Shown: one piece after another, positions 2 to 53,450 of the stretch
Layout: each line of letters begins with the position of its first letter
How positions within the stretch are numbered: the first letter of the stretch is position 1
Assembly: GCA_021234155.1 (NCBI GenBank)
Contig: JAJEKV010000071.1
Span: 2,181,138-2,245,137, forward strand
Reading direction: 5' to 3'
Origin: Isoetes taiwanensis
Taxonomy: Eukaryota > Streptophyta > Lycopodiopsida > Isoetales > Isoetaceae
Length of the DNA: 64,000 nucleotides
Program-made: the position numbers and the translations under genes
Notes under the pieces: model-generated
Seen by the model: only the letters and a program-made list of their open reading frames with translations
Databases searched by the model: none
What the model was told of the DNA's origin: nothing

Positions 2-382
2 AATCTCCCTCAGCGCTCTCCTCTCCACCTCCTTCCTGTCGATCTTCTTCTTGGGTGGTGGCTTGGGGACCTTGGGCTTCGGTGGTGGCGGCTTTAAGGT
101 CTGTTGCTTCGATGGTCGCCCTCCCTCGACGAATGCAACCCTGTTCTCTTCATAGTACTTATTGTATGCCTCCCACTTCTTCATATACGCCTCGTGCTCC
201 CTCATCTTCCTTTCGTATATTTTGACCCGGTCGGTGACGTAGGCTTCTCGGGCAGGCCTTGGCTGTTTCTTCCTATCCCAAGCCGGGTACTCGGGGGGCT
301 TCTGCAACTGGTCTTGCTGGGGCTGCTCAGGCGCTGGCTGCTCGTCGCCTGGGGGTTTGTAAACCCTAAACCCCTCCAGCAT
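2..382 (-). CDS. Second retrotransposon ORF, overlapping the H3-tail ORF (partial)
   Basis: An open frame begins with ATG at 382 and stays open to the window edge (127 codons). It lies +1 relative to the upstream ORF, whose stop is at 368-366, so the two overlap by 17 bases. The product is hydrophilic: an early Pro/Gln-rich part, a Lys/Glu/Tyr-rich helical-looking middle (KIYERKMREHEAYMKKWEAY), and a proline-lysine stretch with PPPPKPKVPKPPPKKK. No zinc knuckle or protease motif is seen before the edge. It may be the continuation of a Gag-like protein reached by +1 frameshifting on the G-run at the overlap, by reinitiation, or it may be in frame with the first ORF in intact copies and separated here by one indel. 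Function is not recognised. Confidence 0.55.
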   Translation of the reverse strand, partial: MLEGFRVYKPPGDEQPAPEQPQQDQLQKPPEYPAWDRKKQPRPAREAYVTDRVKIYERKMREHEAYMKKWEAYNKYYEENRVAFVEGGRPSKQQTLKPPPPKPKVPKPPPKKKIDRKEVERRALREI

Positions 383-998
383 TGGGGATGACGTCGTCGT
401 CAGAAGAGGAGTCGTCGGGGTTCGGAGGTTGGTCGGCTGACCGCTCCTTGATGACAATTTTGGGGTTAGGTCTCTTCCTTGGTGGGACGTCCTTCAACTT
501 CCTTGAGCCGTCCACGAACTTCCCCTTCGCCTTCCTTTTCTCTTCCGCCGCCTTCTGTTCCTCCTCCTCCCTCTTTCTCTTTTTGTCTTCCCTCTTCTTT
601 TCCCGGCACTCGTACTTTTTGATGAACCTTCTAAGGTCTGCTTCCTCTGCTGGCTCCAGACCTGCCACCTGGTTCTCGTCCGCGAGGATCTCCGTGGCTG
701 CGTCAGAATGGTCTTCTGCTCTTTCCTGCTGCCGGATCTCCCGCTCTATTTCTTCATACACCTCCCTCGTCTCCTCGTCCATGGAGGTTGGTGATGTGGC
801 CTCGTCTTGCTCCACCTGCTGATTGAAGACATCAATCAGGTCGAATGTGTCCTGTTCTTCCGAGATGTCCTCGTCCGAAGGCGAACGACCCCCTTTCGCG
901 AGCCTCTCGCGAAGCATCTGCCGAATGATGTCAGCCTCAGTGGCGCTGGTGGTTTCGCCTGGGCGACGCTTCCTGGCGGTCTGTTTGGTTCGGGCCAT
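366..998 (-). CDS. Retrotransposon ORF with a histone H3-identical N-terminus
   Basis: This is a 210-residue ORF, first in the element after the leader. Its first ten residues, MARTKQTARK, equal the initiator Met plus residues 1-9 of histone H3, including Lys4 and Lys9; it then diverges to RRPGETTSA. The rest is low-complexity and charged: an acidic stretch (DEDISEEQDTFDLIDVFNQQ), Glu-rich segments, a basic KKREDKKRKREEEEQK block at about residues 130-145, a PRKRPNP segment, and an acidic tail DDSSSDDD. It looks disordered or coiled rather than globular. The start is chosen because the H3 match begins at this ATG and a TATA box lies about 100 bases upstream. By position it is Gag-like or an accessory ORF. 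A role in engaging H3-tail readers or modifiers is inference only. Confidence 0.7.
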   Translation of the reverse strand: MARTKQTARKRRPGETTSATEADIIRQMLRERLAKGGRSPSDEDISEEQDTFDLIDVFNQQVEQDEATSPTSMDEETREVYEEIEREIRQQERAEDHSDAATEILADENQVAGLEPAEEADLRRFIKKYECREKKREDKKRKREEEEQKAAEEKRKAKGKFVDGSRKLKDVPPRKRPNPKIVIKERSADQPPNPDDSSSDDDVIPNAGGV

Positions 999-1098
999 GT
1001 TTTACGGATCGTCGATCGGATAAAAGCGCCCAAAGATCGCCTAAGTGCGGGAGAGCGGATTTCTAGGGCTGGAACGAGGAAATGAGAGGGGTCTACAT

Positions 1099-1107
1099 CT
1101 ATTTATA
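1099..1107 (-). promoter_or_regulatory. Candidate TATA box upstream of the H3-tail ORF
   Basis: On the minus strand the bases read TATAAATAG, a textbook plant TATA box, about 100 bases before the ATG at 998. That would leave a 5' leader of roughly 70 bases. It lies downstream of the LTR, so the ORF might have its own internal promoter. This is sequence match only. Confidence 0.45.
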
Positions 1108-1210
1108 GCTTGAAAAATTTTAGGTCAAAATTCAAGTTACTCTATTTAACATGCTAAGGCACCTATTTAATTAAAATTTACACTTATTTCAGACTTTTTC
1201 TACCTATTGG

Positions 1211-1275
1211 TCTCACAGCTTGCGCCTCGCTCAAAAACTAAAGTTTAGTTTTTAGACCAGGCGCGAGCTGTGAGA
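1211..1275. repeat. Leader hairpin 1
   Basis: TCTCACAGCTTGCGCCT pairs with AGGCGCGAGCTGTGAGA (17 positions, one mismatch, a G-T wobble in RNA), and an inner AAAAACTAAA pairs with TTTAGTTTTT. It lies between the primer binding site and the first ORF, where retroelements usually keep packaging and dimerisation structures. Confidence 0.75.
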
Positions 1276-1400
1276 TCTCATACATTTCTAGGTTATTTAG
1301 GTAATTAAAACATGCTATTCTAATTTATCCTTATCTTAGAACTAGCCTTACCACATTACTTTTCTCAAATTCATCATGTTTTGGTGTTTTTGGCTCGATG

Positions 1401-1465
1401 TCTCACAGCTTGCGCCTCGCTCCAAAACTAACTTTTAGTTCTTCGACCAGGCGCGAGCTGTGAGA
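1401..1465. repeat. Leader hairpin 2 (near copy of hairpin 1)
   Basis: The same 65-bp stem-loop recurs exactly 190 bases away. The outer arms are identical to hairpin 1, while the inner loop differs, so the stem is more conserved than the loop. Confidence 0.75.
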
Positions 1466-1655
1466 CCACCTCATTTAGAAAATTTTTGGCTCATTCTTTT
1501 TAATCTTATTAAGTTTAATTCACTTAATTGTTACTAGCTTAGCATAACTATAAAAATAAGAAAAAATTTTCCCATTTTTCGAGGCTTGAGGATCCTATCA
1601 AGTTAGTACTACTGGGAGCATGGCCAGTGCTTTGCTCTTGGTCTCCAAGAACATT

Positions 1656-1667
1656 GCTCTGATACCA
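1656..1667 (-). other. Primer binding site, initiator-Met tRNA
   Basis: The minus strand reads TGGTATCAGAGC, the standard complement to the 3' end of plant initiator-Met tRNA, one base inside the LTR end at 1669. It fixes the direction of the element. Confidence 0.9.
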
Positions 1668-1685
1668 CTGTGACGTCCCCTACTC

Positions 1686-1709
1686 GTATACGGTGCTCTC
1701 ACCGTATAC
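1686..1709. repeat. LTR inner-end hairpin
   Basis: GTATACGGTG, loop CTCT, CACCGTATAC: a perfect 10-bp inverted repeat with a 4-base loop, 17 bases from the LTR end next to the primer binding site. Confidence 0.7.
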
Positions 1710-3138
1710 AAACAGGAGTTCTTTCCCCACACCAGCTCCATGCTGATACAGGGCCCTCCACATATCACTGCACCCCTAACGAGTCCCAGTGAAGGTGTCA
1801 TTCTACCCTGTCTCCCTCAGGGCCTACCTAGCTGCGGAAGCGTAAACATACATGTCAGTATACAACATAATCCTCCATCCACCCAGAAGGGTGGTGCATC
1901 AACATCTGCATAGACAATGGTCAGCACATCACATAGGGGTCCTACCCAAGGCTCAGACTCAAGGGGTTGACTGACGGCTTGGGTCTCCAGAGTTCATTGC
2001 AGACAGAATTCATGGCAATGGATTTGGCTGGCATATGAACATGGCTTAGGTTGTCCACTCCATCCGCCCCTCCTGTGCACACTTTGCAGAGTAGGCTGAA
2101 AGGTGTCGGGACCTGACTGTAGCCCGTCGGATGCATAGCCGAAATGGCTATTCCTGGGGTTCATCCTCCCAGTTCCGATGGGGCAGGAAGGGATCACTCC
2201 CTCCAAAGATCTACATGCTGACTCAAGGTGACTAGAGGGCCACTGCCCTTATTCGACTGAACCCAATGGAAAGTGAACACCACTTCACGGGTGTCGAGCC
2301 CATGCCTTGCCCACACGCAGTGGCAAGCCATCAGACCTAGTCACAATGATCCCTGGTAGGCTTTACACACCAGAGGGATCGTTCAAGAATCAAGACATGA
2401 ACCTCCCTCTTAGCCAATCTGGCCCCTTCACCCACAACCAGGTGGGGTTCTTGTACACAGGCCGAATCTATGGTGTGCTAGAGAGGCTACTCTAGGAGCA
2501 TCAACTACAAAGCTTTAGGGCCTCTACCCCCCCTTCCCAATACAAGGAGTTCACAGAGATACATCATCCATATACATCACAGAAGAACTAAAGAACTAGA
2601 TCTAATCTATATCATAGAGTTAGGTTCTTTAGTTAGTGTCTGGGATCTAGAGATCTAGATAGCTGCTATGGGCAATTTTAATAGGCTAAACCTACTGATT
2701 CTATGACTAGAAGACGGTTTAAGCTATTAAATTGACCAAATACCTGATCCTTGAGTGGCTCCTCCTGACCTGAGTTCAACCATCCTGCTGAGCTGATCGA
2801 ATTCAGGAAAACTGATGGCGCAATTCGCTTGGGCAGCGTCTGGGAGGCGGTTTTGGCTCCTGGGGCAGCCAAAACAGAGCTCTAAAACCCTAAGGACGAA
2901 AACTAGCAAGCTAGGGTTTTCCTACCCTAAATAGACATGGGGTTTAGGGCTAGGGTTTCCAATTACCCATTTTGGCATGTGGGATAATTGGAAAGGCCCC
3001 ACTTGCCTTTAATGGCTAGGTGGCAAAATGTGCCTACATGGAAAGGTGTGCCCACATTAATGTGCACATGTGCACATTAATAACATGTGAACATATCTAG
3101 CAAGTTGCCCCTAGGGCTACTTACCTGGCTATCCGTTG

Positions 3139-3211
3139 GCGTACACGTCGGTCGGAGTGGCGTGTACGCGTGACGAGGCAGTACAGTATACGTCCTGGGG
3201 CCGTATACTGT
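3139..3211. repeat. LTR outer-end palindromes
   Basis: Two inverted repeats: GCGTACAC (3139-3146) with GTGTACGC (3162-3169), and ACAGTATACG (3183-3192) with CGTATACTGT (3202-3211). The GTATAC core is shared with the hairpin at the other LTR end. Confidence 0.65.
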
Positions 3212-4084
3212 GCTGGAACGTCACAGCAATCGAGCTGGCACCCTTCCCTCAAGTCAAACGAGGCCAGGACCTTGCAGGGATCCCTCACAAGAGGGGAGAG
3301 CGGGAAAAGAAAGAAACACTCACGCCCTCCACGACAGTATCCCGCATCCACATCCTAGGCCAATTGACTACGAGTGTGATGGAAGTGAGCTACCTTGGCG
3401 CTTCTTGGAGGTCGGGTGGTCTTCTGGCCACGAAACTTGGTCCCCAGAGCAATGTCGAGGTTCTGAGTCCATTGGCAGAGCCAAATCGCAATTCCGGAGA
3501 GGGGAGGTCGCCCGTCCGTCCCCAGGGCCTTGGGAAGAGGAAATTCGGGCAAGCAGCTTCCAGGGGGGTTTTAGGGTCCATGCTCTGGCGTCAACACCCC
3601 CACTCCACGTCAAGTCACGGCGCAAGGTCCCGGCCAAATCTGACAAGGAGAGAGCCTCCAAAACGTAAACCCTGTGGGTTGCCAGGTTCTAGAAGGGTTT
3701 GCATTTTGGGGGCCGAGACTTGGTCTGTTGCACTTGGGACCTGGCCAAGAAGCTGTAGCCGAGAATACGGAGTAAGGGAAACTTTCAGAGTGGAGTTTGG
3801 GCCTGTCCTCCTCCCGATGTGGCAAGTAGAAGTCGGGGGGCGCTTTTGCAGTGGCAAGACATTCATAAATTCGTAATTAATGCATTGTACGAAAATCCTA
3901 TATAATAAAATTATAGTGTGTGTCTGTCGTGTGTGTTGCCCTAAATTGGATGGTCAAGATTTGATTCAGATTATGCCCAGACTGTCCAGATCACGTCCTA
4001 GATCAGGTCGGGTATGGTTTTTTGCGAAGGCCTGCTAGGGTTAGGGAGAATCCGGCAGCTTGCCGAAGCCCACACAAGAAGATC

Positions 4085-7815: not shown

Positions 7816-10800
7816 GCCTTGTTCAACGGACTGCTCCCTAAAGCTGGCATAATTAACTTGTAATGAACTGAATTCGGGGCAAGCAACTTCCGGGGGGATT
7901 TTAGGGTCCCCGCTCTGGCATCAACACCCCCACTCCACGTCAAGACACGGCGCAAGATCCCGGCCAAATCTGACAAGGAGAGGGCCTCCGAAACGTAAAC
8001 CCTGTGAGTTGCAGGTTCTAGAAGGGTTTTTGTTTTGGGTGCCAAGTTTTGGTCTTCTGGCCACAGAACTTGGTCCCTAAGGCAATGTCGACGTTTTGAG
8101 TCCATTGGCAGAGCCAAATCGCGGTTCCGGAGAGGGGAGGTCGCCCCGCCCGCCCCCCGTGGCCTTGGAGAGAGGAAATTCGGGGCAAGTAGCTTCCAGA
8201 GGGATTTTAGGGTCCGTGCTCAAGGCCAACACCTCCACTCCACGCCAAGTCACGACGCAAGGTCCCGCCAAACCGACAAGGAGAGGGTTTTCAAACGTAA
8301 ACCCCGTGGAGTTGTCGTCGTTCTAGAAGGGTTTGTGTTTTGGGGGCCAAGTTTTGGTCTTCTAGCCACGGAACTTGGTCCCTATGGCAATGTCGACGTT
8401 CTGAGTCCATTGGCAGAGCCAAATCGCGATTCCGGAGAGGGGAGGTCGCCCGTCCATCCCCAGGGCCTTGGGGAGAGGAAATTCGGGGCAAGCAGCTTCG
8501 GGAGGATTTTAGGGTCCGCGGCTCGCTTCAACACCCCACTCCACGCCAAGTCACTCGCGCCAAGGTCCCAAATCGACAAGGAGAGGGCCTCCAAAACGAA
8601 ACCCCGTGGGTTGCTGTGTTCTAGAAGGGTTTGCATTTTGGGGGCCGAGACTTGGGCTCAAGGCGCTTTGGGACCTGGCCGAGAAGCTGCAGCCGAGAAT
8701 ACGGAGCAAGAGGAACTGACGGAGCAGAGTTTGGGCATGTCCTCCTCCCGAGGTGGCAAGTAGAAGTCGGGGGGCGCTTTTGCAGTGGCAAGACATTCAT
8801 AAATTCGCAATTAATGCATTGTACTAAAAATAAATTCTGATTTTTGCCACCTGGATTCCTAATCCATCTCCAAAGCACATAGCCCAATTTTCGAAATTTT
8901 CGGAGAAGGTCTAGTCAAAGGGTTAGGATTAGAACGGTCGGGGCAGCCCGTTGCAGGGCAACCGAGCTGGCACCCTTCCCCAAGTCAAACGAGGCCAGGA
9001 CCTTGCAGGGATCCCTCACAAGAGGGGAGAGTCCGGACCCCAAGAGGCGGGATCCAAAAAAGTTCCCGAGGCAGCCCTTCCCGGCGGCTCCCCGGGCCGC
9101 GACGCTAATGACCACCCTCCCGGAGCCCGGTTCCCCTATCCGACCGTTGGATCCTCCGTTCAGGGGCCCCTCTTCGGTAAGGCCCAAAAGATTCCAGATC
9201 GGTCTGGGAGAACTTGTCAAACCGCGGGGCGCCCCGAGGCCTTTGTAGAAACCGCAGTTGTCTTGTCGCTCGCACCGGGGAGGTTCTCGAATGGCAAATC
9301 GACCTTGCCAAATCGTCTGGAATGGCGAAATTACCCTAGGGAGCAAGTTACAAGGTCGGTTTTGCAAAAGAAAGAAACACTCACGCCTTCTACGACAATA
9401 TCCCGCATCCACATCCTAGGCCAATTGACTACGAGTGTGATGGAAGTGAGCTACTTTGGCGCTTCTTGGAGGTCGGGTGGTCTTCTGGCCACGAAACTTG
9501 GTCCCCAGGGCAATGTCAAGGTTCTGAGTCCATTGGCAGAGCCAAATCGCGATTCCGGAGAGGGGAGGTTGCCCGTCCGTCCCCAGGGCCTTGGGAAGAG
9601 GAAATTCGGGGCAAGCAGCTTCCGGGGGGATTTTAGGGTCCCTGCTCTGGCGTCAACACCCCCACTCCATGTCAAGTCACGGCGCAAGATCCCGGCCAAA
9701 TCTGACAAGGAAAGAGCCTCCAAAACGTAAACCCTGTGGGTTGTCAGGTTCTAGAAGGGTTTGCATTTTGGGGGCCGAGACTTGGTCTGTTGCACTTGGG
9801 ACTTGGCCGAGAAGTTGCAGCCGAGAATACGGAGCAAGGGAAACTGATAGAGTGGAGTTTGGGCCTGTCCTCCTCCCGATGTGGCAAGTAGAAGTCGGGG
9901 GGCACTTTTGCAGTGGCAAGACATTCATAAATTCGTAATTAATGCATTGTACGAAAATAAATTCTGATTTTTTGCCAGCTGAATTCCTAATTCATCTCCA
10001 GCACATAGCCCAATTTTGGGAATTTTCGGAGAAGGTCTAGGTCAAAGGGTTAGCTAAGGTCAAAGGAATGGAGTTTGTGGGATCGTTGTACTTGGGGTTG
10101 ACCTTGGCTCGCTGGACGTTATACTTGGTCTAAGATTGCATTGAGAATATAAGCATCATAACTATTAGAATGAAGATAAATGATTACAGAAAAGCATCAT
10201 AACTACTAGAATGAAGATAAATGATTACAGAAAAGCAAAAAGACTATCAAGGGTTGGGGAGGGGGGATTTAGATTTGGTTGCTTGTGATGATGGTTGTGT
10301 TTCAAAGATCAAGGCATATGGATAGAGAGAATGCCCTTGTTCAACTGATCGCCCCTAAAGCTATTTGACATGGATGGCATAATTAACTTGTAATGAACTC
10401 AATTCGGGGCAAGCAACTTAGGGGGATTTTAGGGTCCCCGCCTGCTCAACACCCCACTCCACGCCAAGACATGGCGCAAGATCCCGCCAACTCTGACAAG
10501 GAGAGGGCCTCCAAACGTAAACCCCCGTGGAGTTGCAGGTTCTAGAAGGGTTTTTGTTTTGGGTGCCGAGTTTTGGTCTTCGGCGCCACGCAATTTGGTC
10601 CCTAAAGCAATGTCGATGTTCTGAGTCCATTGGCAGAGCCAAATCGCGGTTCCGGAGAAGGGAGGTTGCCCGCCCGCCCCCGTGGCCTTGGGGAGAGGAA
10701 ATTCGGGCAAGCAGCTTCCGGGGGATTTTAGGGTCCATGCTCAAGCGCCAACACCCCCACTCCACGCCAAGTCGGGCGCTAAGGTCCCGACCGAACTGAC

Positions 10801-11965
10801 AAGGAGAGTGCCTCCAAAACGAAACCATGTGGGTTGTCGTTCTAGAAGGGTTTTGCGTTTTGGGGGCCGAGACTTGGTCTGCTGCACTTGGGACCGCCAA
10901 GAAGCCGCAGCCGAGAATACGGGAGCAAGGGGAACCGACGCAGCAGAAGTTTGGGCCTGTCCCCTCCTCCGATGTGGCAAGAAGCTCGGGGGGGCTTTTG
11001 CAAAGGGCAAGACATTCATAAATTCACAATTAATGCATTGTACCTAAAAAAAAATTTGATTTTTTTTGTCGACGTGACATCTCACAATAAAATCCTAAAG
11101 TACTAGGGCCCGGACTATGAAGTCGGTGTAGGTCGTGGAAGAACCGAGGAGGTCGGGTGGTCTTCTCGCCACTTTAACTTGGTCCCCGTGGCAATGTCGA
11201 CGCTCGAGTCCATTGGCTTGTGATGATGGTTGTGTTTCAAAGATCAAGGCGTATGGATAGAGAGAATGCCCCCTGTTCAACTGGATCGCTCCCTAAAGCT
11301 ATTTGACATGGATGGCATAACTAACTTGTAATGAACGGGTTTTGTTTCTAAAACAATTGTACCTTGATGAAAGATTGCTTCATAGTTTCCAAGTGGAAAT
11401 TTTTTAATGTGTCCCAGACCGCCTTTGTTGCCCCCTGGTCAAAGACTCGCCTTTTTCGATGCACACTCTTTTAGTTATGCATTTTATTGCATTTATGGTT
11501 CATAAATTCGTAGTTAATGCATGGCATGGAATTAAATTATGGTTTTAGTCACTGGCTTCCATGGTCATCACCAAAGATACAGAAAATTTCCAAAATTTTG
11601 GATAAGGTCCAGACCCAAGCATTGGGGTTAGAACGGTCCGGGCAGCCCGTTGTTGGGCAAGCATGACTGGCACCCTCAAACAAGGCGAGGACTTTGAATG
11701 GCCACCTCAGTAGAGGGGAGAGTCCCGTCCCCAGGAGACGGACCCCAAAAACGTTCTCGAGGCAAACTGTCCCCGCACCGCCTCGGGGATCAGATGCTAA
11801 TGAACACCCTCCCGGCTCGGTTCCCCTATATATCCCAAACCGCTGAATCCTCCGCTCAAGGATCCAGCTCGAAAGCAGGACCAAAAAATCCAAGATCGGG
11901 TCCGAGAAACGGTCAAACCGCAAGCGCCCCGGGCGCACCGTCCCTGTGAACGGCGATTCGACTTC

Positions 11966-34177: not shown

Positions 34178-36345
34178 CATTAATCCAAGGCGCTATTTAT
34201 ATCAAAGTTAAGCATTAAATTATACAGATCAATTATATCTGCTCTCTCCTTCCAAACATCTCGAATGTATGTGCTTAAAGTATGTGGTGATACTGCAAAA
34301 AGATCTCTTAAAGTGTTTACCTCTATACCATGTTTTTTCCTTATATGTTCATAGGAATATGTTCCATACCATCTACCTGTCTCAATGTGCAGATGGTGAG
34401 AAGAAAGTCTCAATTGAGAGATATACATCCGGTTCTTGCGGCTAATATGTGACATTTTTGTTCCTTGTAATCCTGTAGAGAATTAATCTCAGCTAGGTAG
34501 AATTGTTTCTTTGTATACCTGTATCCCCAATCTTCCATAGCTTGCTCAGTGCTCTTTCTGTCACAAAAGCTCTTATCTCTGAATATTTTTCCGAATCTGG
34601 CCAGGTATTCAAGCCAAGCCATTTTTCTGCCCATTTCAAGGCATCGGCATACCAGCCTTTATTTTTAAATTGCTGCAATGCCATATAGGGGAGCCTATCC
34701 TGCTCCATTGCCAAAACTCTGTTTATATAAGTGATCGTTCTAATCAAAGCTTCAACTTCTAGAGGTAATAGACCTGTCTCAGCAAGCAGCATGCAATATG
34801 GAGTCTGAGGCTTAACTCCAAGTTCAAGGAGCAAAAATCTTTTCTGGACCTGTTCTATTTTATTCCAACCTCTGAGAGAAAGCCCAGGGCCCCAAATTGG
34901 GCAACCATAAAGAACAACAGACCTTACATGAATAAGCCATCTGAATCACATGATTTTCCATTCCACATGTGTTGCAATGCAGATTTGACATCATCAACAG
35001 AAAATAATGACATCGACTCACCAGAGGAGACCATTAAGCCTTTATCTGAGTCGTGATCTTGGTATAGTTCTCTGATCAAGTCTAGGAGTCTATCTTTGGA
35101 GATGTCACCATTTGTGGTATGCTTCTTTGTCCGACTCCAAAACTTTTTTGGTTCCAATTCCATTTCATCCATGAGCATTTTATGGTGCATCCTCAGCCAA
35201 TCCCTCTTTTTGTGCTTCACCAGAACTTTACGGCAGCTTGAGTATCTCTTGCAGTCTTACAAGCAAGTTTAGCATCTAAACAGGCAGTATCAAACCATTT
35301 TCTGTCTTTATATTTTACACTTTTAGTACTGACTCCAAAAGTGTCTCTTGCTACTCTCATAATAATATCTTGCAATGTATGGCTTTTCTCTTCTATCAAG
35401 GCTGGCCATTCCACATCTGTTAACATCTGTGTTAAACTCTTTTCATATTGCGAAGCAAGCTTATAGCGGATTTTCAGCCTCAAAGGAGGATTCGGATCTT
35501 TAGTAACCTCCTGTACTTTTACGTCTAGAAGTATCATAAGCGGAGCATGGTCGGAGTCCGGGCTTTTGTCCAAGATCCTAAAATCTTTTAAGCATGACAT
35601 ATAGTCTGGATCTCCTAAAAGCAAATCCACTGAGCTTTTACCATTCGGCTGAAAGCAAGTAAAGCCTTTGGAATGTGGAAAGCTGGCTATGCCATTGCAG
35701 ATTACCATGTTAAAAGACTCGCATAAAGAAATAACATGCTCACCCATTTTGTTTTGCACATAATCCGTTGTTTGCCTTGGCCACGCTGCATGCCCATCTT
35801 GTTCCTGAAGTCAAAGAGCATTCATTTCCCCTGACAGCAGAGTTGCTTGTTTGTTGGAAAGCCGTGCATTGAAATCCCATGTCACATATACAAGCCCTTT
35901 GTGCCTATAAAGGGATATATCATTAGCAAGATTCTCCAACGGGTCATCAGGATTCAAGTCTGGGTGATTATATATGGATGCAAGAGGATCTAGCGGAGCA
36001 AAATATACCACAGCCACATAAATATCTTTATGATCAGAGTTTAAATGCAACCAGATAAACTGAGAGAAGACATCTTTCTTTATTATGGTAATTGAATTTT
36101 TCAGGCCTTTCCGTACAAAGCATGCTATACCACCCCAACCACGTTGGCTCTGACCACGCATATTCCAGACTGAATCAAGAAGATCAAATCCTGGGATTTC
36201 GATCGCCCTATTGAATTCATGTTCCCATGTTTCTGTGAAAGCCACTATATCATAATCATGAAAAAGAGTTAAACTGCTTAAAATTTTGTCTTCATTTAGT
36301 CCATGTATGTTCCAAACGAGAAGCCTGAGGACCTGAGATCCCTAT
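34178..36345 (-). pseudogene. LINE ORF2 relic (endonuclease plus C-terminus)
   Basis: It opens with LLVWNIHGLN, then MAFTETWE, the endonuclease body with GWGGIACFVRKG, WDFNARLS and SSVDLLLGDPDYM, and the catalytic SDHAPLMILL (about 35550), all typical of an exonuclease-endonuclease-phosphatase fold that nicks target DNA. After CDSDGL (about 34930) the reading jumps directly to SVVLYGCPIWGPGL and EQVQKRFLLLELGVKPQTPY, so the whole reverse-transcriptase domain is missing. The C-terminal part ends near 34178. Stops at about 35760 and 35220 and shifts at several points break it further. Compared with 47241-49120, the deletion removes about 300 codons. Confidence 0.85.
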
Positions 36346-48266: not shown

Positions 48267-49120
48267 TATGTAGAGTCCATCCTTGCCCCTTTATAATAGA
48301 AGTCTCGATTCTTTCTGGAACCCACTACCATGATTTTAGACTTAGACAGATTCACTTTCATGCCCATAGCATCAGAAAAATCAGCCAACGTATCAAGATG
48401 CTTTTGAAGCCCTGTTGGTTGCTTCGAGATAAGTACTACATCATCCGCATACAACAGAAGAGCAAACATACCCCCTGCAATAGAGGTGCCTGGCCCACCC
48501 TGCTCCATAATCCATTCTTCTAACCCATCAATAAACAACCCAAACAGCGTCGGAGACAAGGGGCAGCCCTGTTTGACACCCACATTACTCACTATCACAC
48601 TATCACATGCATCTCTGAAGGGCAAGGATAATTCTACCAGCACCTTTTCATATACTAACCTGGTAGCATCTCTGTACTCCACTGGGATATTTAATTTTCT
48701 CATTCTTTCCAACAAGCATTCTCTAGGAACCATATCAAATGCTTTACTAAAATCAATAAACGCAAGATATAGAGGTTGTTTCTTACCCTTTACCGCATCC
48801 ATTGCAACTGTGAGAGTGACTAAGTGGTCAATGGTGGAGTGCTTTTGTCGGAAACCAGCCTGCCCATTAGCTCTCAAATCATGTTCTTCAACCCATTTAA
48901 CAATCTTAGATTCTAGTATTGATGCAAAAAGCTTGGAAAATATACTAGATATCAAAATGGTTCTGTAATTATTAATATCAAACTTATCACCTCCTTTGAA
49001 GATCGGCACCACTCTATTGACTTGCCATGTTTCAGGAAAACCTTCACATAACGCAATATTAAACATCTTCATGAGAGATTCAATCAGCTGGTCTCCCGCC
49101 CATTTTAACATCTCTGCCAC
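48266..49120 (-). pseudogene. LINE reverse transcriptase domain
   Basis: The 284-codon frame covers the RT fold: VVPIFKGGDKFDINNYRTIL (fingers), KIVKWVEEHDLRANGQAGFR, FIDFSKAFDMVPRECLLERM (motif A with catalytic Asp), VSNVGVKQGCPLSPTLFGLF (motif B), and FALLLYADDVVLIS (motif C, YADD). All catalytic aspartates are present. Pre-RT sequence (PFITVEDVTVGVAKLANGKA) is readable up to about 49200 but has a stop before it. It is truncated 5' and split from its C-terminus, so it is not a complete ORF2, though the RT core itself is undamaged. Confidence 0.9.
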
Positions 49121-49264
49121 AACTCCACGCGCATCAGCAGCCTTACCATTAGCAAGTTTTGCAACTCCAACCGTGACATCCTCAACTGTGATAAAAGGCT
49201 CCCTCTCATCCTATTCCATAACCATTTTTTATTCAATCCCATGGACAAATTTTCTGCCTAATTG

Positions 49265-51594: not shown

Positions 51595-53450
51595 GACACC
51601 CTTCCCCAAATCGAACTAGGCCCGGACTTTGCACGGCTTCCTCACCAGAGCGAAGAGGCCAGACCCTAGGAGACGGACCTTAGAAAGGTTGCTGAGGTAG
51701 CCTTTCCTGCCAACGCTCCTCCGGGAGGCCAAAGGCCAATGCCCCCCCTCCCAGAGCTCGGTTTCCATATTCGACCGTTGAATACGCCATTCAAGTAACC
51801 TGCTTCGAGTAGGTTCAAAAAAATCCAAGATCAGTCCGCGAGAACTTATCAAACTGCGAAGCATCCTGCGGTCCACCGTGTAGAAACCTAATTGTTTTGT
51901 TGTTCGGGCAGTACAAAGGCTCCGGAATGGAGATTCGACTTCGTCATGTCGTTCGAAATGATGAGATTATCCTAGAGACCAAGTTACACGATCCATTTTT
52001 GCAACAAAAGAAACACGAACCCTCTACATGGTAGTATTATGCTGCCACCTCTTAGGCCAATTAACTACGAACGTGCTTCTTGGAGAATTTTCTGCCCATG
52101 AAACTTGGTCTCCAGGGTAATGTCGACGTTTTGAGTCCATTGGCAGAGTCAGTTCACAGATCTGGAGTGGGAGAATTGCCCGTCCATGGCCAGGGGCCTT
52201 TGAGAGAGGACCTTTGGGGCGAACTGCTTCCGGAAGGTTTTAAGGGTTCGTCTTCGTGTCAACACCCTCCCTCTACCTAATGACATTATGCAAGATCCTG
52301 GTCAAATCTGACTAGGATATGGCCTCCGAAGCGTAAATCTTGTGTGTTGCAAGATTATTGAAGGGTTTACATTATGAAGGTCGAGTTTTAGTCGGTTGCA
52401 CTTGGGACATGGTCGAGAAGTTGCAGTTGAAAACGCGAAGCAATAGGAACTGACAGAATGGGGTTTGGATTTATCCTCCTCCGAGTGTGGCAATTAGAAG
52501 TCAAGAGCACCTTTTGTAGTAGCAAACTTATTTGGGATCATTCAGGATGGCCAATAGCTTCAAACTCTGTTATTTCAGTTGCCAAGGCTCCACATGCATG
52601 TTTAGAAAAGCTGCACCTAATTATCCAAGAAAACGACCATCTTTTGATATCTGAAATGTAAACCCTACAATAACCTAGCAACACACAAGGTTTACGTTTC
52701 AGAGGCCAAAACATGTAGGTGCACCTTTTCTAAACATGCATGGGGAGACATGGCAACTGAAGTAACAGAGTTTGGATCTATTGGTCATCCCAAATGGTCC
52801 CAAACAATTTTGCTACTACTCCAAACAAAAGGTGCTCTTGACTTCTAATTGCCACACTCGGGGGAGGATAAATCCAAACCCCATTCCGTCAGTTCCTATT
52901 GCTTCGCGTTTTCAACTGCAGCTTCTCGACCATGTCCCAAGTGCAACCGACTAAAACTTAACCTTCATAATATAATCTCTTCAATAATCTTGCAACACAC
53001 AAGGTTTACGTTTCGGAGGCCATGTCCTAGTCAGATTCGACCAGGATCTTGCAAAATGTCATCAGGTAGAGGGAGATGTTGACACCAGAAGATGGACCCT
53101 TAAAACCTTTCAGAAGCAGTTCGCCTTAAAGGTCCTCTCTTGAAGGCCTCTGGCCATGGACGGGCAACTCTCCCACTCCAGAACTGTGAACTGACTTTGT
53201 CAATGGACTCAAAACATCGACATTACCCTGGAGACCAAGTTTCATGGGCAGAAGACCATTCCTTCTCCAAGAAGCACGAAAGTAGCTCATGTCCAACACG
53301 TTCGTAGTTAATTGGCCTAAGAGGTGGCAGCATAATACTACCATGTAGAGGGTTCCTGTTTCTTTTGTTGCAAAAAATGATCGTGTAACTTGGTCTCTAG
53401 GGTAATCTCGTCATTCCGGACGATATGGCGAAGTCGAATCTCCCACACTC
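51595..53450. repeat. Diverged copy of the GC-rich module containing a 1.5-kb inverted repeat
   Basis: 51595-51930 resembles 8960-9300 (CACCCTTCCCCAAATCGA, GGCCCGGACTTTGCA). 51931-52640 and 52700-53441 are inverted copies of each other: for example CTCTACATGGTAGTATTATG on the left and its complement at about 53325. The arms are about 710-740 bases around a spacer of about 60. Open frames inside have no motif. Confidence 0.85.

Follow-up and report, generated by a model that had tools for sequence, protein, structure and literature searches.

Plant chromoviruses have the gene order gag-PR-RT-RH-INT-chromodomain, and SNAG-domain proteins and viral histone mimics present an H3-like tail exactly at their N-terminus, without a histone fold. 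A transposable element carrying an H3-like gene is already known from a fungus: the H3L gene lies in a hAT DNA transposon of Pyrenophora tritici-repentis, next to the transposition gene and to an ORF of unassigned function. It occurs there as 26 very similar genes, has insertions in its N-terminal tail and corresponds completely neither to H3 nor to CenH3 (Manning et al. 2013, PMC3538342). Orchid Ty3/gypsy elements carry an AlkB demethylase as an additional domain, and among the nine domains named, out of 15 non-canonical domains from a screen of 121 angiosperm genomes, a histone is absent (PMC9289625). A review of additional ORFs (aORFs) does not contain the word ‘histone’ in its main text, and it describes gene transduction by LTR elements as known, usually in one or few copies (PMC7264820). 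Among the open-licence papers listed, judged mostly by their listed descriptions, none described a histone gene in an LTR retrotransposon.

The 64,000-nucleotide stretch of Isoetes taiwanensis DNA analysed here (contig JAJEKV010000071.1, positions 2,181,138 to 2,245,137; hereafter the window) contains part of a Ty3/gypsy chromovirus of ~13 kb whose first gene is a histone-type ORF. The element shares the gag-PR-RT-RH-INT-chromodomain order, the LTRs and a Met-type primer site with plant chromoviruses and differs from them by two extra ORFs located before gag, the first of which is the histone. Its closest precedent is the hAT-borne H3L: in both, a transposable element carries an H3-like gene beside the gene for its transposition and an ORF of unassigned function. 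However, the window element is of the LTR/RT/integrase type, with no hAT transposase between terminal inverted repeats; hundreds of residues separate its tail tip from the fold, its lineages are deeply diverged and under clear purifying selection, and well over 100 scored matches were obtained in each of two lineage groups compared to the 26 genes described for H3L. Like the AlkB-type gypsy elements, it encodes an extra host-derived protein that would act on the regulatory layer of the host. The N-terminal H3-like tail is shared with SNAG-domain proteins and viral histone mimics, whereas the histone fold is found in the element protein only. What is new, relative to the literature covered, is an LTR-retrotransposon clade in which purifying selection has preserved an H3 whose tail tip and fold are set apart by an arm of over 300 residues.

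Both LTRs were found, with TG...CA ends. The 5′ LTR (1669..3225, minus strand) is 1557 bp long and bounded by an 8-bp terminal inverted repeat (TGTGACGT/ACGTCACA), and the 3′ LTR, located beyond the window (L098/L130; L numbers denote individual stretches), is preceded by the purine-rich AAGGTGGGGAGAA, a polypurine tract. The two LTRs are 96.4% identical, with 24 transitions and 14 transversions in 1552 compared positions (K2P 0.0249), indicating a fairly recent insertion. The element is flanked by ATTGC and GTTGC, a candidate target-site duplication alike at 4 of 5 positions, and a similar repeat free of the insertion near window position 8958 reads GTTGC. This repeat copy looks like the empty site of the element, which was inserted in one of a set of repeat units that are 73–96% alike (window 3305-3896, 7871-8829, 9366-9958, 10401-11043 and 52090-53365). 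A 26-bp perfect palindrome at window 3056-3081 was found in both LTRs. The primer binding site TGGTATCAGAGC (1656..1667, minus), which we take to be of the initiator tRNA-Met type, starts 1 nt past the LTR end. The leader (999..1668, minus; 670 bases) holds 14 upstream ATGs with frames of at most 23 aa and folds strongly, with a z-score of −6.85 compared to 20 shuffles. Self-matching detected two near-perfect palindromes of about 66 nt in the leader (1400..1465 and 1210..1275, the latter 92% identical to the former), which may be hairpins for packaging or dimerisation; in an alignment of 17 copies, the second one can be seen with its 3′ half. The histone-type ORF is the first long ORF after the LTR, primer site and leader, as the first-pass annotation, made from the window alone, had proposed.

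Downstream of this ORF the order is ORF2, gag, protease, RT, RNase H and integrase with a chromodomain. RVT_1, RT_RNaseH, H2C2, SH3_Tf2-1 (an SH3-like integrase tail) and a weak RVP_2 were detected in the window copy (L098), gag/Ty3_capsid in L099, and rve and Chromo in L100 and in L129, a copy of the sister lineage beta; the chromodomain frame of the window copy itself stops inside the domain. On visual inspection, two of the three aromatics that form the HP1 cage are missing from the chromodomain, so that a simple loop, in which the integrase would read methylated K9 on the element's own histone, is not favoured. ORF2, located between the histone and gag (L098 6477-8024, minus; L129 164-1402; L131 147-1670), diverges fast, with about 26–30% identity between lineages, and matched no Pfam family at E ≤ 0.1 aside from one chance-level match.

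The ORF singled out by the first-pass annotation runs on the minus strand from 998 down to 366, encodes 210 aa with MARTKQTARKRRPGETT as the first residues, and comprises the H3 tail tip and the N-terminal part of the charged arm. Its codons 1–10 (969..998, minus) read MARTKQTARK, the same as the H3 tail through Lys9, in agreement with the identity first reported. The stop of this ORF is a frame break of the window copy, and other copies read on in one frame. The rest of the arm lies in a second frame (2..382, minus), which begins with an ATG at 382, overlaps the stop of the 210-aa ORF and, at the edge of the window, enters the H3 fold (RRALREI). It continues into a stretch of 89 residues that ends where H3 ends, the fold carrying on outside the window at L098 8752-9000 (minus). 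The fold of the window copy itself was recognised as a Pfam core histone (PF00125) with an E-value of 3.1e-24. The 210-aa ORF alone matched no Pfam family and gave no convincing PDB chain match, and the histone nature of the gene was therefore hidden inside the window. Thus, the earlier statement that the protein departs completely from H3 after ten residues holds inside the window only, but the H3 reading resumes at its edge.

The null for the ten-residue match was obtained by searching the ten-codon pattern, starting from ATG, in a collection of prokaryote genomes (84,980 by its description). Nine matches were returned, seven of which were eukaryotic H3 genes or fragments and two the heads of frames of 28 and 19 aa, and viral contigs gave no match to the pattern. 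Together with the retention of the tail across copies, with 52 of 80 exact, these counts ruled out a chance match, confirming the earlier claim on this point. The eukaryotic H3 genes and fragments were located inside metagenome-assembled genomes filed as bacteria (L002, L003, L005-L009) and represent contamination. For relatives in viral contigs, 13 pattern stretches were obtained, none of them confirmed by tblastn.

In 10 of 16 contiguous copies the tail, the charged arm and the H3 fold form one open frame of 417–441 codons, and six copies are broken; the 16 were picked mostly for looking open past the stop seen in the window, making 10/16 a biased rate. Among the ten open copies, L103 has ATA for ATG, L107 lacks six fold residues, and L112 and L114 have altered last residues. 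The distance from Lys9 to the fold (ALREIR) is 318–342 residues in these copies compared to 37 in H3, and the protein is therefore named an H3 variant rather than canonical H3. The encoded product is thus predicted to be a long-tailed H3 variant with an intact ARTKQTARK tip, a highly charged arm and a complete H3 fold. Pfam PF00125 matched one open ORF at E=5e-28 and the fold of a sister copy at 9.9e-28, and the best PDB matches of the latter were H3.3/H3. Residues R49, R52, R69, R72, R83, C110 and H113, and likewise K115, R116, V117, T118, D123, L126 and I130, are kept in all six tabulated representatives; we take these to be the H3-H3 and DNA contacts of nucleosomal H3. In the window lineage R63 is replaced by Pro, K122 by Gln in two of three representatives, R129 varies, and most of residues 86–90 differ from host H3. 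The AlphaFold model was of low confidence (pLDDT 52.9, pTM 0.19), with helices at the expected positions of the fold. All seven Foldseek matches of this low-confidence model were chains of nucleosome entries (47–55% identity, rmsd 11–13, one with E below 0.001), which may be read as H3; a model of the beta protein gave no structural match at E ≤ 0.001.

A search of the genome with the 210-aa query gave at least 167 matches, with the best 150 of 10,496 candidates scored. Exact MARTKQTARK was found in 52 of 80 other copies, one substitution in 7 (including two with Ile for the initiator Met) and more changes in 21; the 80 copies were picked by hand, mostly from the top rows, omitting some lower rows and those whose match began past about residue 30, so that these proportions are biased. 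Several of the 21 divergent copies (for example L045, L047, L080, L089 and L094) keep MARTKQ or a similar start and then, from codons 7–10, carry a different, partly open sequence, possibly representing a subfamily with an altered tail. The shared tail and the family-wide matches ruled out a histone capture limited to the window copy. A captured histone exon present only in this copy had been named as an outcome that would undo the first-pass interpretation; the sequence does derive from a captured histone, but it is distributed throughout the family.

Purifying selection is strong on the tail codons 2–10 and on the fold. Among the ten open ORFs (45 pairs), pN/pS was 0.077 over codons 2–10, 0.339 over codons 11–32, 0.262 over codons 33–345 and 0.124 over the fold, with the corresponding pS of 0.26, 0.29, 0.48 and 0.47, in line with the earlier expectation that the first ten codons would be kept across divergent copies. 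The lower pS of the tail compared to the middle region (0.26 and 0.48) suggested that constraint at the DNA level may add to this value. The tail is not uniquely conserved: pN was as low in 36 of 309 later nine-codon segments and pN/pS in 66 of 309. Nine of the 36 low-pN segments start at codons 70–78, one at codon 266, and 26 fall in the fold. In the alignment of L102-L114, TSPTSMDEETREVYEEIE in the charged arm (codons about 70–86) is nearly invariant, matching the conservation of tail and fold, and may possibly constitute a second docking motif.

An ordinary H3 query identified 15 host-like genes (95–97% identity) followed by at least 135 matches at 69–84%, with the best 150 of 9,022 candidates scored. 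Many of the latter sit inside frames of 420–567 codons and belong to sister lineages (beta, gamma and delta), the H3 core of which is 85–88% identical to host H3; identity to the host core was 76–78 of 89 residues in eight tabulated sister copies compared to 47–52 of 89 in seven copies of the window lineage (alpha). The N-termini of nine of ten sister copies differ from H3 (MANTKS..., MAITKS..., METPKQ...), the tenth stretch being without an N-terminus, and beside these different N-termini the copies carry another region of some 250–300 residues. Since nine beta/gamma copies in which the N-terminus is present keep the fold without MARTKQTARK, the tail is not a requirement throughout the superfamily. 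Among ten beta/gamma/delta copies the fold showed a pN/pS of 0.081 at a pS of 0.64.

In a beta copy (L123/L129), the only sister followed as far as the integrase, the histone is succeeded by an ORF2 homolog, gag, protease, RT and an integrase with a chromodomain, identifying a chromovirus. Its protease-RT is 65% and its ORF2 about 26% identical to those of the window copy; for gag the identity between the two lineages is 51–59%, and for the integrase it is 82%, with L100 standing in as a diverged member of the window lineage. A gamma copy, read over 6.2 kb, has an ORF2 homolog and a piece of gag after the histone, with no pol seen in this length; along 82 residues this ORF2 is 30% identical to that of the window copy. 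That the histone occupies the same position in these lineages, and that they have ORF2 in common, favours a single old capture predating their split, with separate captures in the lineages as the possible alternative.

The diverged core of the window lineage shares derived residues with plant CENH3, represented here by Arabidopsis, rice and maize sequences. In four representatives, 11–12 of the 36–40 core columns changed from host H3, among them Pro63, Ala65, Thr85, Glu87 and Leu89, carry a residue also seen in one or more of these references. Shuffling of the residues gave 2.2–2.8 shared columns on average and reached the observed value 0, 0, 0 and 1 times in 20,000, but it takes no account of site preferences or of the conservative nature of some of the shared changes. 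At 22 diagnostic columns the 154 alpha cells comprised 59 CENH3-like, 32 H3-like and 63 other residues, compared to 15, 141 and 20, respectively, of the 176 cells of beta/gamma/delta. In contrast to CENH3, with its longer loop 1, the window lineage has a loop 1 of H3 length in the alignment. The core tree was built without an outgroup, and an unrooted tree does not give the placement of alpha; host CENH3 was not separable among the best 150 of 8,004 candidates scored. A centromeric (CENH3-type) H3 may be what the window lineage took up or came to resemble by convergence, and this would point to centromere or heterochromatin targeting.

A candidate private promoter of the histone ORF is TATAAATAG (1099..1107, minus); nowhere else in the LTR and leader does the minus strand contain TATA[AT]A. 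Of 80 copies, 77 carry a TATA[AT]A in the 200 bp that precede the start codon, 76 of them at −105 to −119. The LTR holds 39 ATGs and the leader 14, and only a start-stop ATG TAG lies between the TATA box and the ORF. The position of the box and the single start-stop ATG after it suggest a private mRNA for the histone. An E2F-like motif, as we presume it to be, was found within 120 bp upstream in 47 of 80 copies (TTTGGGCGC in 35, TTTGGCGC in 11 and TTTCCCGC in one), in 39 of them at −36, and might tie expression to S phase. No TATA[AT]A was present in nine beta/gamma copies over the 88–300 bp upstream that were examined. Capture of the promoter from host H3 genes was rejected, with four element stretches and two host H3 upstream regions sharing only 11-base matches.

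For the role of the protein, we lean towards its deposition as a variant nucleosome, altering integration or silencing. After removal of the initiator Met, the element H3 would pair with host H4 and be deposited where the element integrates or on its new copies. There, the tip with K4 and K9, held out on its long and flexible arm, and the distinct residues 86–90 would change which readers, writers, chaperones or integrase complexes act. The altered chromatin would help the element to choose its integration site or would soften silencing. The basic fold and the arm might instead pack element RNA or cDNA in the particle or pre-integration complex, leaving the H3 tail as ancestral baggage. The location of the histone as the first ORF, before gag, and the composition of the arm, about 22% D+E and 21% K+R in one copy, are consistent with such a condenser, and viral histones packing viral DNA exist. 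However, purifying selection on the tail tip is at least as strong as that on the fold, and the kept H3-H3 and DNA-contact residues are those of nucleosomes, making a condenser unlikely. We consider somewhat less likely again a decoy, a soluble H3-like protein titrating H3K9/K4 writers, readers or chaperones and thereby allowing new copies to escape silencing: the exact ARTKQTARK tip under selection and residues 86–90, mostly unlike those of host H3, agree with it, but a complete nucleosome-competent fold would be unneeded, and the exact tail is absent from beta/gamma copies.

A passively captured, hitchhiking histone sequence that brings no gain to the element is highly improbable, because pN/pS is 0.08–0.12 for fold and tail at pS of 0.26–0.64 and the histone is present in many copies of several lineages, whereas the gene transduction known for LTR elements usually yields one or few copies (PMC7264820). 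The first-pass annotation had pictured an unrelated disordered protein bearing a short mimic of the H3 tail, and the identity and conservation of the tail would suit this picture; the H3 fold at the end of the same frame in 10 of 16 copies leaves it scarcely credible, and the tail mimic alone was ruled out on this ground. Since the protein ends in an H3 fold, the tail is best understood as histone sequence that was kept rather than as mimicry arisen from nothing. As an extension of the variant-nucleosome reading, we put forward tentatively, and with more doubt than that reading itself, that the chromovirus clade supplies its own nucleosome component, a canonical-type H3 in one lineage and a CENH3-type with a free tail tip on a long arm in another, which would mark the clade's own insertions or the centromere and guide the integrase. 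Retrotransposons are usually described as targets or readers of chromatin, and a histone-encoding lineage would be an actor able to rewrite it. With such a lineage it becomes testable whether a mobile element can deposit nucleosomes of its own, whether an arm exceeding 300 residues is tolerated in an H3 tail, and whether CENH3-like histones can be mobilised, questions that touch on how centromeres evolve and how silencing is escaped.

Elsewhere, the window gave no Rfam match at the gathering threshold and no tRNA in a tRNA scan. It carries LINE-type remnants with reverse transcriptase (PF00078) and endonuclease (PF03372) at 48269-49210 and 35814-36341 (minus), and pieces of leucine-rich-repeat genes. 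Long low-complexity stretches at 13.5–14.5, 20–26, 37.5–40.4, 44.4–45.7 and 54.3–56.6 kb are mostly polypyrimidine- or polypurine-like and yield spurious ORFs of several hundred codons.
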